Assembly: GCF_000284335.1 (NCBI RefSeq) | Contig: NC_017096.1 | Span: 992,001-1,056,000, forward strand | DNA length: 64,000 nucleotides | Source: Caldisericum exile AZM16c01 | GTDB taxonomy: Bacteria; Caldisericota; Caldisericia; Caldisericales; Caldisericaceae | Direction of reading: 5' to 3' | Part shown: positions 30,032 through 62,679 of the stretch, piece by piece | Layout of the letters: each line of letters opens with the position of its first letter | Numbering within the stretch: position 1 is the first letter of the stretch | Notes under the pieces: model-generated | Databases searched by the model: none | What the model was told of the DNA's origin: nothing | What the model saw: the letters and a program-made list of their open reading frames with translations, nothing else | Position numbers and translations under genes: made by a program

Positions 30032-32299
30032 TTAATCTTCAGGATTTCTATTTACGATTATTGGGGCAGGAAAAACTCTTGCTCCAATAATTTTTTTGCA
30101 GAAAGAGTCTGTAAAAATACTGTAAAGTTCCTTAGGTATAATTTGCGTTCTTATACTTAATTCATATACATTTTCATTTTGGTATAGCTTCCTCACAGGG
30201 CCATAAATTTTTGTATCCTGCACATGTATTTTAAATATAGGGTAAATATCATTACTATTTAATCGAAACTCATAAAGAAAAGCAAAGGGAGGATAATTTA
30301 ACTCCTTTCTAAAAGATAATTCAAGTTTAATAAACTCCAACTCATCATCTTTTTTGAAATTTTCAATTATGTAGTTTTCCATTTCGTATGTTTGAATAAA
30401 AATATCATTTGGATAAGTTTCAAAAGCACCTTCTCTTAAATATTTTAAAGCTTCAAAAGACGTATTAATTTCGCTTCCGTTAAGAAATGTATCTGCACTT
30501 ACAAATGCTAAAAAACTTATATTTTCAAAATTTAAATGCGAGAACATTGCTTCAGTGCCAAGAAAAATTGTCTTTTCAAATTTTTTTGAATCATAAATTA
30601 CTTCGCTTCCGCCTTCGATAACAACGAGATTCGTATCCTTAAATGCATTTCTAAGAGAATTAGAAAGTTTTTGAATACCATAACCTAAATAAAGTAAGGA
30701 CAAACTTCCGCAGCGAGGACACTTTTCAATTGGTTCTTCAGTGTGCCCGCAAACAGGACAGAAAAGTAAATTCATTTCTTTATCAAAATATAGAGGACTT
30801 TCGCAAACAGGACACCTGTGAACGTATCCGCATTCCCCGCAAACAATAAAAGTAGAATAAGGTTTTCTATTTAGAATAAGTGCAACATTTCCATTTGATG
30901 ATATTGCTTTTTTAATTTTGCTTTCAAGATAACGAGAAAGTGGCGACAAGTTTTCCGATTTTAACTCTCTTCTCATATCTATGATTCGTTTATTCTGTTT
31001 TTTTAGATTTTTAATCTCGACAAGTTCAAATCCTTTTTCTTTTTGAAAATAGTAAATTATATCATCTATTGAATAAGTTGAAAAAATAATAGAAGCATTT
31101 TCAAGCTCACTCTTTTTATAGGCAACGATCCTTGTATCAAACTGAAGGTACTCATGAGGGATATGATATTTTGACGAAGCATCTTCAACAACAATGAACC
31201 GTAAATTGGGCATATCTGTAAATAAAGAAAATGGCGTTGAAATAATGATGCGTTTACCTAATCTTAACTGCCTTTTAATCTCACTTTTCTCTTTGCCTGT
31301 ATACCCAAATACTAATCCGGGAAAATTGCCTTCGTAAAGTTCACTTAGCCTTTTAATTAGAGCGATTTCATTTACAACAACTAATACACTCTCACTTTCA
31401 TGAATTTCACTTTTTACCAAATTAGAAATATAGGAAACTCTTTCCTTTAAATTTCCACCATCAATTATCAATCTTTTAGGATTTTCTCTAATTATCAAGG
31501 GAAATATTTTTTCATCATTTTCATCATTTTCATCAATTTCTTCAATAACTCCTTCTTTTAGAAGTGATTCCAAAATTGCTAAACCATTTCTTATTTTATA
31601 TATAGCCTCGCCATATTGGATAGCTCCATTTTTCTTAATTCGGAGGAGTACATTTTTAACAGATTTAAAAACACCTTTTTTGTGAACTAACTCTTCAAAA
31701 AGTTCTTCATTTTTAATCACAAGCAGTTTATTTAATGGGTATGGAAGCTTGTATTCAATTTTTATAAGGTTTTTCTTATCCATCTCCCTTAAAAATTGTT
31801 TTAAGTAACTCACTTTGACTTTAGATTTTTCATTTAGTCGACTTAACGGAATGGGAGATGCCTCAAGGAGCAAATCGCAAATATTTTTCTTATCTTGAGA
31901 TTTTAGGGAATCTCTAAATTCGGAAAACAATTTTAAGTCATTTACACTTATAATTGGAACTAATTCTCCCTCAACATAGGTTCCGTAAATCTTATTTATA
32001 AGTGAATGTATCGGTATGAGAAAATTCTCAGAAACAAAAAGCAAAAGTTTTGCAATTTCCTTAGAGAAAAGATTCTTTTCTACAACAGAAATTACGTTTT
32101 TTATTTGATCCTGAGATAATTGATAAGGAAGAGTATCGACAATTTTAAGGACATAAGCAAGTTTTGGCTTATTCTTTTTACCAAAGGGTACAAGGACTCT
32201 TGAACCAACCTCAACATCTAAAAAATCGGGGGCCTCATAGAATAAAAGATCAAAAGGAAGATATGCATCCTCTATTGCGACCCCCACAAATTTACTCAT
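30032..32299 (-). CDS. priA: PriA-like replication restart protein lacking ATPase motifs
   Basis: 755 aa. The N-terminal 3' DNA-binding domain and the two zinc-binding Cys clusters (CGECGYVHRCPVC and CPVC ... CPRCGS, about residues 480-525) identify PriA. However, the Walker A loop (normally GxxGSGKT) reads LIIDGGNLKERVS near residues 277-290, and the DEEH motif reads VEDASSKYH near 371. So it probably cannot hydrolyse ATP and acts only as a structure-specific loader, as reported for Deinococcus-type PriA. It overlaps the metK stop by one base (TAATG). Confidence 0.88.
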   Translation of the reverse strand: MSKFVGVAIEDAYLPFDLLFYEAPDFLDVEVGSRVLVPFGKKNKPKLAYVLKIVDTLPYQLSQDQIKNVISVVEKNLFSKEIAKLLLFVSENFLIPIHSLINKIYGTYVEGELVPIISVNDLKLFSEFRDSLKSQDKKNICDLLLEASPIPLSRLNEKSKVKVSYLKQFLREMDKKNLIKIEYKLPYPLNKLLVIKNEELFEELVHKKGVFKSVKNVLLRIKKNGAIQYGEAIYKIRNGLAILESLLKEGVIEEIDENDENDEKIFPLIIRENPKRLIIDGGNLKERVSYISNLVKSEIHESESVLVVVNEIALIKRLSELYEGNFPGLVFGYTGKEKSEIKRQLRLGKRIIISTPFSLFTDMPNLRFIVVEDASSKYHIPHEYLQFDTRIVAYKKSELENASIIFSTYSIDDIIYYFQKEKGFELVEIKNLKKQNKRIIDMRRELKSENLSPLSRYLESKIKKAISSNGNVALILNRKPYSTFIVCGECGYVHRCPVCESPLYFDKEMNLLFCPVCGHTEEPIEKCPRCGSLSLLYLGYGIQKLSNSLRNAFKDTNLVVIEGGSEVIYDSKKFEKTIFLGTEAMFSHLNFENISFLAFVSADTFLNGSEINTSFEALKYLREGAFETYPNDIFIQTYEMENYIIENFKKDDELEFIKLELSFRKELNYPPFAFLYEFRLNSNDIYPIFKIHVQDTKIYGPVRKLYQNENVYELSIRTQIIPKELYSIFTDSFCKKIIGARVFPAPIIVNRNPED

Positions 32300-33499: not shown

Positions 33500-34663
33500 T
33501 TAAAATTTAAATATTTTTGACAAAACAAACTCTGCTATACTTTCCTTGTCACCTTCAAATTCACTAATATTTCCGAATCGATCCATCAGAATAACTTTAC
33601 CTAAATCGCTTCCAATATTTTCTATCGAATTTCCTAAAACATAATCAAGATTTTTTTCTTCTAATTTCTTTTTTGCGTTCTCAATAATATTATTTGTTTG
33701 AAGCGCAAAGCCAACAAATATCTTGTTATCTTTATATTTCGATGCTTCTTTCAAAACATCAACAGTTGAAACAAGTTTTATGGTTAGTTCAGGAAGTTTC
33801 GGTAATTTGTTATGTAGCATTTCTTCTGGTCTATAATCTGAAGGTGCTGCCGCCATAATGAGTAAATCACATTTCTTTACTTCATCTGTAACTACTTCAA
33901 AGAGTTCCTCAGTTTTATCAACCCGCAAAATCTTCATGCCCATTGGTAATTTTTCTGTGGTATGTGCTGCAATTAATGTTACGTCCGCTCCAAACCTTCT
34001 TGCAACTTTTGCAAACGCTATACCCATCTTGCCAGAAGAACCATTTGTAATAAATCTAACTGGATCTATGTATTCTCTTGTTGCACCACATGTTACAAGC
34101 ACTTTTAATCCTTTCAATTTCTTCGGAGTTAACTCAACAAGAATTTCTTCAAAAATGTCTTCTGGATCTTTAAGACGACCCTTACCTTTTGCAAGATCCG
34201 CCAAAAACCCTTCGTCTGGCTCTATAATTTTATAGCCAAAGCCTTTTAAAATTTCAATGTTTCTCTGGGTTGCAGGATGAAGAAGCATGTTCTCATTCAT
34301 CGAAGGAGCAACAATCACAGGTTTCTTCGAAGCAAGAAGTGTAGTCAAAAGCAAACTATCAGAAATTCCTGAAGCAACTTTTGCAATAAAGTCAGCGGTA
34401 GCAGGAACAACTGCAATTAGGTCTGACCACCTTGAAAGTGCAAGGTGTATAGAAGACCCGTTAATAATAGAAAATTGGTCGTTATCTGTATATACCTCTT
34501 CTGCGCCAAGTGAAAGAAAAGAAAAAGGTGTAACAAATCTCTCTCCGCCCCTTGTAATAACTACTTTAACGTTTATGCCTTTCTTTACAAGGAGCCTTAG
34601 AATTTCAAGTGATTTGTACGCTGCAACTCCACCAGTTACAGCAAGAAGTACTTTATTCCCTAT
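33500..34663 (-). CDS. coaBC: Bifunctional CoaBC (PPCS/PPC-DC) with apparent AUA start
   Basis: 387 aa: flavoprotein decarboxylase domain (GVAAYKSLEIL near residue 13, SMNENMLLHPATQRN) and a CTP-dependent synthetase domain (TCGATREYIDPVRFITNGSS). It makes 4'-phosphopantetheine on the way to CoA. In its frame there is a stop upstream and no ATG, GTG or TTG until 34354, well inside the first domain. The only start giving the normal N-terminus is ATA at 34663-34661, seven bases after AGGAG. A sequence error is the alternative. It overlaps rpoZ by 11 bases. Confidence 0.88.
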   Translation of the reverse strand: MGNKVLLAVTGGVAAYKSLEILRLLVKKGINVKVVITRGGERFVTPFSFLSLGAEEVYTDNDQFSIINGSSIHLALSRWSDLIAVVPATADFIAKVASGISDSLLLTTLLASKKPVIVAPSMNENMLLHPATQRNIEILKGFGYKIIEPDEGFLADLAKGKGRLKDPEDIFEEILVELTPKKLKGLKVLVTCGATREYIDPVRFITNGSSGKMGIAFAKVARRFGADVTLIAAHTTEKLPMGMKILRVDKTEELFEVVTDEVKKCDLLIMAAAPSDYRPEEMLHNKLPKLPELTIKLVSTVDVLKEASKYKDNKIFVGFALQTNNIIENAKKKLEEKNLDYVLGNSIENIGSDLGKVILMDRFGNISEFEGDKESIAEFVLSKIFKF

Positions 34664-34850
34664 TTCCTTTCTCCTTATTCAAAAGATATTCCTGCACCCT
34701 ATATATGAACTCAGAAGCATAGAACGGGTTATAAACAGTTGGGTTTAACTTGTACAATTTTTGTCCTTCCTCAATAAGAACCTGTATCAATCTGTACTTA
34801 TTATCAATAACTTCTTTTAAAAGTTTTATGTACATTTCAGAATCTTGCAT
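34653..34850 (-). CDS. rpoZ: RNA polymerase omega subunit-like protein
   Basis: 65 aa, small and helical, with DNKYRLIQVLIEEGQKL resembling the conserved N-terminal helix of omega, followed by an Asn-Pro turn (NPTVYNPFYASEFIYRV). Its place directly before coaBC and priA copies the common rpoZ-coaBC-priA order. AGAGGTG precedes the ATG. The similarity is weak on sequence alone. Confidence 0.6.
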   Translation of the reverse strand: MQDSEMYIKLLKEVIDNKYRLIQVLIEEGQKLYKLNPTVYNPFYASEFIYRVQEYLLNKEKGNRE

Positions 34851-34873: not shown

Positions 34874-34930
34874 TTTACGCAAAATATTTATGGCGTAAAA
34901 ATATTTTACCAAAAATTAAAATATAGTCAA
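34874..34930 (-). promoter_or_regulatory. Promoter of the rpoZ-coaBC-metK-priA operon
   Basis: Minus strand TTGACT (34930-34925), 16 bases, TAAAAT (34908-34903). A perfect TTTACGC/GCGTAAA inverted repeat (34899-34893 and 34880-34874) lies at the expected transcription start, possibly an operator or a leader hairpin. Confidence 0.65.
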
Positions 34931-60628: not shown

Positions 60629-61819
60629 ATGTTTATTGATACGCTTAAACAAATAAAAAGTGAGTCGAAGATAAATGGTTTTATTACTCCAGTCTATAAC
60701 GGCCTTAACATATCAAATATCGGAAGCCTAATACTTGAAAACTTTGAAATTCAAAATAATTTTGAGAAGCTTACAATAACTCAAATTCTAAAAGTTCCAA
60801 AAAAGAAAAAGGTGATATTTTTCTTAATTGATGCATTTGGATTTAATCTTCTTAGTTTTGCAAGAGAGAAGGTTTTGTTAGAATCTTTTGAAGAAATAAT
60901 CAAGAATGGCATATTTACAGTATTGACATCAACTTTCCCATCGACAACTGCAACTGCATTACCTTCCATATACACAATAAGTGAGCCAGGGACACATGGG
61001 GTTTTAGGATATAGATTCTATACAAGAGAATTCGGAAATCTCATTAATCCACTTTTTCAAAAACTTTCTGTGAATAAAAACTGCCCTATAAAATACGACG
61101 AGGATTGGCTTATCCCTATTAAAACGATCTTTGAAATCTTAAATGAAAACAACATTCCGAATTATTCTATTGTAAGATCTGATTATCTAACAAGCACATT
61201 CGACAAGGCAGTATATAGAGGGACAAAAGAACTTGGGTATTTAACACTTTCAGACCTCTACAATAAAATTGTAGAATTGCTTAAACTTGATACCATCTTC
61301 ATAAATGCTTACTGGTGGAGCATTGATGCGCTCTCACATCACTATGGACCATATTCTCAGGTGGTAATTTCCGAAATAAAATTCCTCGATTATTTCTTAA
61401 GACTGCTTCTTGAAAAAATTGATAATGATACACTCCTCATAATTTCCGCAGATCATGGGCAGATAGATACTTCGAATGGCAAAGTGATAAAACTGAAAGA
61501 AGAGAAAGATTCCGAAAATATTCTTTTGCCAGTTTCCGATGTAAGAGCGCCTTACATTTATACAAATGGAAAATTGCAAAAGGCCTTTTTCGAAAAATTT
61601 GATAATATTACCGCTTTAACGAAAGAAGATGCACTTAACCTTGGACTTTTTGGTAACACCATAAGCTTCGAAGAACGCATTGGAGACTATATAATCCTCT
61701 TCAAAGATAATTCGTACGTAGATTTTATTTCAGAGGAAAGTGAATTGAATCTTTTAGGAAAGCATGGAAATCTAACAGAAGATGAAATGGTTGTCCCACT
61801 TATTCTTTATTATAAATAG
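60629..61819 (+). CDS. Type I phosphodiesterase/nucleotide pyrophosphatase family protein
   Basis: 396 aa of the alkaline-phosphatase superfamily. Metal ligands and nucleophile are visible: FFLIDAFGFN, the Thr nucleophile region TSTFPSTTATALPSIYT, WSIDALSHHYGPYS and IISADHGQID. No signal peptide, so it may be cytoplasmic. Substrate unknown (nucleotide, sugar-phosphate or phospholipid). Converges with the EamA gene and overlaps it by 20 bases. Confidence 0.85.
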   Translation: MFIDTLKQIKSESKINGFITPVYNGLNISNIGSLILENFEIQNNFEKLTITQILKVPKKKKVIFFLIDAFGFNLLSFAREKVLLESFEEIIKNGIFTVLTSTFPSTTATALPSIYTISEPGTHGVLGYRFYTREFGNLINPLFQKLSVNKNCPIKYDEDWLIPIKTIFEILNENNIPNYSIVRSDYLTSTFDKAVYRGTKELGYLTLSDLYNKIVELLKLDTIFINAYWWSIDALSHHYGPYSQVVISEIKFLDYFLRLLLEKIDNDTLLIISADHGQIDTSNGKVIKLKEEKDSENILLPVSDVRAPYIYTNGKLQKAFFEKFDNITALTKEDALNLGLFGNTISFEERIGDYIILFKDNSYVDFISEESELNLLGKHGNLTEDEMVVPLILYYK

Positions 61820-62663
61820 CAATTATAACCATTGAAGTTAAAATTAAAGTTGCACCAACAATTCCACCAAAGTTTAGTCTTTCTCCCAGAATAAAGAATG
61901 AAAATAAATACGCAAATACTGGCTCAAGGATAAAAATTAAAGACGCTTCTGTTGAGTCAATATATTTTAATGCAAAAGATTCCGTTTGAATTGCAAAAAA
62001 ACTTGCGACAACACCCAAAAACAAGGTTGAAAACATCACAAAACGATTCAAATTAAAATGTTGATTTAAAAAAGCAAACGGAAAAGATAGCGCAAATGAA
62101 ACAATCATTTGAATTGAAGTTACAAGTAAGCTGGGTAAATCCTTGACAAGTTTTTCGGTAAGAACGATTTGAAAAGCAAAAGAGATCGCACACAACAAGG
62201 TAAGGATATCACCAAAATTAACAGAATTTAGACTTCTTAAATCGATTTGTGATAAAAACAAAAGCCCTACAAAAGATAAAACTAAAGCAACAATTTCGAA
62301 GTTTCTCGGTTTTTCTTTTAGATATATTGTGGAAAAAATGGGAGTAAACACTATATAAAGACCTGTTATAAAAGCACTTTTGGTTGGCGTTGTGTATTTT
62401 AAACCTATAGTTTGAAAAGCATAGGCAACAAAAAGAGAAATGCCTAATATGATAAGAAGTAACAATAATTTGGGATTCTTTAAGAATTTTCTATGCCTTA
62501 ATACAACAAATAATGCAACTACACTTGCAAAACCAAAACGAAGGAAAAGCAATTGAAACTCATTTATAAATCGAAGTGTAGACTTAACAAGCGTAAAAGT
62601 TGAGCCCCAAATAAGCGTAGCAAATATAAGCAAAAGTATTGAGAATATCTTTCTTCTTTTCAT
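61800..62663 (-). CDS. EamA-family (DMT) transporter
   Basis: 287 aa with ten hydrophobic helices in two EamA repeats (first starting ILLLIFATLIWGSTFTLVKS, second from about residue 150; ending FILGERLNFGGIVGATLIL). Likely exports or imports an amino acid or metabolite. TATAAT ends 8 bases before the ATG, so the 5' leader would be very short. Confidence 0.88.
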   Translation of the reverse strand: MKRRKIFSILLLIFATLIWGSTFTLVKSTLRFINEFQLLFLRFGFASVVALFVVLRHRKFLKNPKLLLLLIILGISLFVAYAFQTIGLKYTTPTKSAFITGLYIVFTPIFSTIYLKEKPRNFEIVALVLSFVGLLFLSQIDLRSLNSVNFGDILTLLCAISFAFQIVLTEKLVKDLPSLLVTSIQMIVSFALSFPFAFLNQHFNLNRFVMFSTLFLGVVASFFAIQTESFALKYIDSTEASLIFILEPVFAYLFSFFILGERLNFGGIVGATLILTSMVIIAIYNKE

Positions 62664-62679
62664 AATGGAAAATTATAAT

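Follow-up and report, generated by a model that had tools for sequence, protein, structure and literature searches.

An AUA start codon for coaBC in Caldisericum exile, shared with relatives in the family Caldisericaceae

In Caldisericum exile AZM16c01, the gene coaBC, which encodes phosphopantothenoylcysteine decarboxylase / phosphopantothenate–cysteine ligase, opens at an AUA codon placed seven nucleotides behind a strong Shine–Dalgarno (SD) sequence. In the genomes of the family that carry ATA or ATC at this site, AUA or AUC is almost certainly the true start. As to its meaning, we consider it likely that the start is genuine, long conserved, attenuated and probably sensitive to IF3, so that CoaBC is held low within its operon. 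The window analysed here is the whole stretch of 64,000 nucleotides (contig NC_017096.1, positions 992,001 to 1,056,000), to which all unqualified coordinates refer; its genome is a single contig of 1,558,103 bases.

The coaBC start site and its product

The elements that define the start all lie on the minus strand:

34679–34681, minus strand: in-frame TGA closing the coaBC frame on its upstream side
34671–34675, minus strand: SD sequence AGGAG, inside TAAGGAG (34671–34677), −9.3 kcal/mol
34661–34663, minus strand: AUA start codon of coaBC, the sole start-like codon at SD distance
34653–34663, minus strand: 11-nt overlap between the end of the upstream gene (stop TAA, 34655–34653) and the start of coaBC
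33500–34663, minus strand: coaBC, 387 codons plus stop when counted from the AUA
34352–34354, minus strand: TTG at codon 104, the first canonical in-frame start of coaBC

From the closing stop onwards the frame reads TGA ATA AGG AGA AAG GAA ATA GGG AAT AAA GTA CTT CTT, and the start is the second ATA after the TGA, the spacer that separates it from AGGAG being 34670–34664. The 16S of this genome has GGATCACCTCCTTTCT as its 3′ end, and the anti-SD is present there. A preliminary description of this DNA had proposed a frame shut upstream by TGA, devoid of ATG, GTG and TTG in its first 103 codons, entered at an ATA seven bases past AGGAG with a product of the expected length, and overlapping the upstream gene by 11 bases; all of this was borne out, the codon count to the letter. 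Its further suggestions, that the codon might limit CoA synthesis or rely on coupling to rpoZ, would agree with what the genome comparison gives.

Read from the ATA, the product scores 390.1 bits against TIGR00521 (coaBC_dfp; cut-off 219.7) and covers profile positions 4–391 of 392, a near-full match. It also matches the Pfam families PF02441 (Flavoprotein) and PF04127 (DFP), and it aligns to the solved CoaBC 6tgv_A (E 3.9e-59) such that residue 3 – counted from the codon after the ATA – falls on residue 7 of that structure.

When starts are limited to ATG, GTG and TTG, the TTG at codon 104 yields a 284-codon open reading frame, and it might be supposed that this internal start is the one in use and that the CoaC part is never translated. 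A start there would remove most of the CoaC domain. Codons 2–103, however, are under purifying selection: between genomes G000 and G002, dN is 0.104 and dS 1.166 in this segment, and the corresponding values from codon 104 to the end are 0.169 and 2.256. Because dN is far below dS in codons that precede the first canonical start, the CoaC part must be translated. CoaC residues are, moreover, conserved across all ten aligned sequences, and the other ATA/ATC genomes have their next canonical codon at scattered positions (codons 50, 123, 6, 6, 24, 24 and 23), which makes use of an internal start highly improbable. Gene finders that admit ATG, GTG and TTG only would nonetheless lose 103 codons from this core enzyme.

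Start codons among the relatives

Within the family, 18 genomes were considered, of which 15 have a coaBC match and 14 a readable coaBC 5′ end. The starts of these 14 are distributed as follows:

ATA, seven genomes: G000, G002, G007, G008, G009, G011, G013
ATC, one genome: G006
ATG, five genomes: G001, G004, G014, G015, G017
GTG, one genome: G012

The starts of G014 and G009 come from gene fragments, and G009 is 7% contaminated and sits on a long branch. AGGAG with a spacer of exactly 7 nt is found at all eight ATA/ATC sites, and the relatives with such a start reach down to about 50% protein identity. The presence of the same codon in relatives, named in the preliminary description as a check, was thus found at the equivalent site in 8 of the 14 readable family genomes, with the same SD and spacer, and the proposed natural AUA start gains support from it.

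An error of sequencing or assembly that masks a normal start has practically nothing in its favour: we found no point that supports it, and the seven ATA and one ATC come from separate genomes. Record WFZA01000058.1 – probably the same record as G013 – also displays an ATA/ATC-type start. An error or indel at the coaBC start is ruled out by the ATA and ATC of the relatives at the same site. In G007, an in-frame TAG lies two codons upstream of the ATA, so that neither a start farther upstream nor a simple indel can serve as the explanation.

Outside the family but within its class, coaBC begins with TTG in all five genomes of a sister family. As a wider control, 84,980 species genomes were scanned, and the best 80 of at least 579 confirmed coaBC loci were read. 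One of these 80 belongs to the family (L031, Caldisericales); among the 79 unrelated loci that are left from the best 80, 74 have ATG and three have GTG near the N-terminus, and two have neither ATG nor GTG close to it. A separate observation concerns an Aquificaceae MAG (L061, JALWVU010000052.1, about 2440–2520), whose coaBC has no ATG, GTG or TTG close to the N-terminus and shows, seven bases past GGAGG, a CTG that shares bases with the upstream stop (CTGA) and may be a CUG start.

A CoaBC tree from which the start columns were omitted requires three changes of the ATA/ATC state (3–4 across bootstraps) and five for all start groups together; rows in the ATA/ATC state lie as much as 2.4 substitutions per site from one another. 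Rooted with the sister family, the tree is in our view most simply read as a single gain of ATA/ATC before the family split, followed by losses, which this history places in the G001/G004 line and in that of G012, G014, G015 and G017, the branch uniting these four being weakly supported. Since five family genomes have ATG and one has GTG, AUA is not indispensable.

The overlap with the upstream gene bears on the choice of codon, as the third base of the coaBC ATA is also the first base of a Lys, Arg or Gln codon in that gene. A single substitution would turn ATA into ATG, and G does stand at this base in the ATG and GTG genomes of the family. In none of the eight ATA/ATC genomes is the start's third base G, compared with 24 of 48 other nearby tail codons that begin with G, a contrast whose data points are not guaranteed to be independent. 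The A at the third position of ATA is also constrained by the Lys and Arg codons of the upstream gene.

Operon context and decoding of the AUA

Around coaBC, the window holds the following neighbours:

34903–34930, minus strand: promoter-like site TTGACT-16-TAAAAT upstream of the rpoZ-like gene, a consensus match only
34653–34850, minus strand: upstream gene, a probable divergent rpoZ (RNA polymerase omega), 65 aa
32299–33486, minus strand: metK, next in the probable operon (TIGR01034, 538 bits)
30032–32299, minus strand: priA-like gene, fourth in the probable operon (NF004066, 231 bits against a cut-off of 813; PF17764)

The preliminary description called the upstream gene rpoZ. Position and weak similarity agree with this name and make a divergent rpoZ probable; a domain match does not, as the 65-aa protein of the window has no Pfam or NCBIfam match and none to PF01192 at a maximum E-value of 10. 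Two homologues from the sister family give E-values of 1e-5 (25.9 bits, cut-off 26) and 0.089 against PF01192. The family's version has diverged too far for the Pfam and NCBIfam models. All readable relatives have an rpoZ-like gene ahead of coaBC, and in each of the 14 readable family genomes the two overlap by 8–23 nt. The order rpoZ-like, coaBC, metK, priA-like is found in the window and in those family relatives whose fetched stretch extends far enough; the four genes probably form one operon. A scan for sigma-70-like sites found fewer of them in the real sequence than in shuffles. The PriA-like protein, for its part, lies far under the NCBIfam cut-offs and has 30–36% identity to several relatives, as would befit a fast-evolving PriA.

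The constant overlap invites a different reading, in which a programmed +1 frameshift in the upstream gene yields CoaBC as a fusion, with no initiation at AUA. Each readable family genome does have the two frames overlapping, with a constant relation of the coaBC frame to the upstream stop. A conserved SD at a constant 7 nt from ATA/ATC is, however, a mark of initiation; in G007 the shift would be confined to approximately 11 nt, bounded by the in-frame TAG on one side and the stop TAA of the upstream gene on the other; and other relatives carry ordinary ATG, GTG or TTG starts at or near the site. No shared slippery motif was seen by eye in the listed overlaps of the family genomes. We therefore regard a frameshifted fusion as very improbable.

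As to the decoding of AUA, none of the 46 tRNA genes that passed the cut-off has the anticodon UAU, and a special AUA-reading initiator or isoleucine tRNA was rejected on this ground. Three of the 46 have the anticodon CAU, and one of these three bears three G–C pairs in its anticodon stem, the mark of an initiator tRNA. The gene for IF3, infC, is known to start with AUU, AUC or AUA. It is present in 16 of the 18 family genomes, and its start, after GGAGG, is ATT at 15 of the 16 readable loci and ATA at the remaining one; as the family's infC begins with ATT or ATA, these cells already use the device of a non-canonical start. The ATA belongs to G007 (L125, GGAGG TGA CGC ATA AAA), a genome in which infC and coaBC alike start with AUA.

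Use of AUA starts is not a general habit of the lineage. Among 227 conserved genes surveyed on contigs of six genomes, six showed no canonical start around their conserved N-terminus; four of these six are coaBC, the only family flagged repeatedly, and a general use of AUA was rejected accordingly. A gene passes this survey if a canonical codon lies no more than 10 codons beyond the aligned N-terminus; short shifts would escape it, and the coaBC of G006 (ATC, with TTG at codon 6) therefore went unflagged. The two remaining flags fell on a contig-end open reading frame in G002 and a single gene in G006. Of separate interest is a 253-codon gene of G006 (L174, contig C2, 12292–13053), a homologue of window 61800–62672, which has no ATG, GTG or TTG before codon 37 although its similarity begins at codon 3; it is a candidate for a non-canonical start or for a decayed 5′ end.

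The mechanism that we consider most likely runs as follows. 30S subunits would dock on the AGGAG of coaBC, and some 30S subunits or ribosomes may arrive from the overlapping rpoZ-like gene by putative coupling. The ordinary initiator tRNA, with its CAU anticodon, would then read the AUA at 34663–34661 poorly, and IF3 would discard part of the resulting initiation complexes, as it does with infC. Strong SD and poor codon together would act as a conserved attenuator, keeping CoaBC low relative to RpoZ and MetK. The reduced rate, the IF3 sensitivity, the coupling and the physiological purpose of the AUA start are what we infer from comparison of genomes.

Attenuation, toleration and known systems

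The SD duplex energies, calculated with the 16S tail, differ by start codon in such a way that the groups do not overlap: −8.7 to −12.0 kcal/mol at the eight ATA/ATC sites, −6.0 to −6.3 at the five TTG sites, −5.6 at the GTG site and 0 to −1.7 at the five ATG sites. The inverse relation between SD and start rests on two supported independent contrasts (three in all) on the tree, which point in the same direction with a p of 0.5 and are too few to give a statistical test power. A trade of SD strength against start codon at coaBC is thus suggestive and no more. Simple rescue of weak codons is an alternative source of strong SDs at such codons.

What these data leave to be weighed is whether the start is selected for weakness or whether a real AUA is merely tolerated, a good SD and ribosomes from rpoZ giving enough CoaBC for the codon not to matter. 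Toleration would sit well with the variation of the start within the family (ATA, ATC, ATG and GTG), with the overlap of the ATA and upstream-gene codons, and with an SD strength inside the normal range of these genomes: on contigs of eight genomes, 30–50% of the sampled genes reach −8.7 kcal/mol or better, values that lean strong since start choice in this sampling rewards SD strength. Against it stand the persistence of ATA/ATC over long branches, with ATG a single substitution away and allowed in sister tails, and the near absence of an SD from the ATG versions, an SD so weak being found, in the same strong-leaning sampling, in 5% of the sampled ATG genes of G015 (n = 19) and 24% of those of G004 (n = 21). 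Mere toleration is, on this balance, unlikely but by no means negligible, and an attenuated AUA start remains the reading we favour.

A wider proposal, which we offer tentatively and would ourselves call doubtful, is that the initiation rate of coaBC in the Caldisericaceae is a conserved trait, held low by a trade between SD and codon; that CoA in the AUA species is sensitive to IF3; and that infC and coaBC form a small IF3 regulon. If true, the CoA supply of these species would respond through IF3 to the condition of the translation apparatus. Start codon and SD pairs at this one gene form a natural series, which offers a test bed for a selected low initiation rate. To our knowledge, few chromosomal genes have a conserved AUH start, and coaBC is a further one, from core metabolism and from a deep-branching phylum. 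Searches of the open-licence literature brought up no report of coaBC starting with AUA.

Parallels exist at several levels. The pairing of weaker start codons with stronger SDs has been described across prokaryotes for AUG, GUG and UUG (PMC5622118), and in both that work and coaBC the weaker start goes with the stronger SD; that study deals with those three codons and does not contain the word AUA, whereas the series at coaBC begins at AUG without an SD and ends at AUA with a full one.

Among individual genes, infC is close to coaBC in its strong SD, its ATH start, its lack of a canonical N-terminal start and its conservation over the family. It differs in that CoaBC is a metabolic enzyme that cannot discriminate its own codon, so that no autoregulatory loop is implied. 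That IF3 represses non-canonical starts and that infC is autoregulated is set out in a study on Streptomyces (PMC5472188), in which sigR has a GTC start repressed by IF3, the non-canonical start being kept in 32 of 34 species. Like coaBC, sigR combines a non-canonical start with a strong conserved ribosome-binding site, and there the start sets the ratio of operon products; unlike coaBC, its codon is GTC rather than AUA, and its control by IF3 was measured (PMC5472188).

In Staphylococcus aureus, infC, ccpN and citZ start with AUA and cvfC1 with AUU, all with extended SDs, and in poor medium the expression obtained from such non-canonical starts was about 10% of that from AUG (PMC13009471). 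The S. aureus and Bacillus genes ccpN, cvfC1 and citZ resemble coaBC in their non-canonical start and extended SD, with conservation described for ccpN and cvfC1; they are other genes in another phylum, backed by ribosome profiling and reporters where coaBC has comparative genomics, and coaBC differs from them in that it comes second in a pair of overlapping genes (PMC13009471).

By sequence, coaBC has what marks the starts of infC and ccpN – no canonical start at the N-terminus, a strong SD and a conserved codon. Alongside infC, ccpN and sigR, known genes with starts of this kind, coaBC takes its place as a new member.
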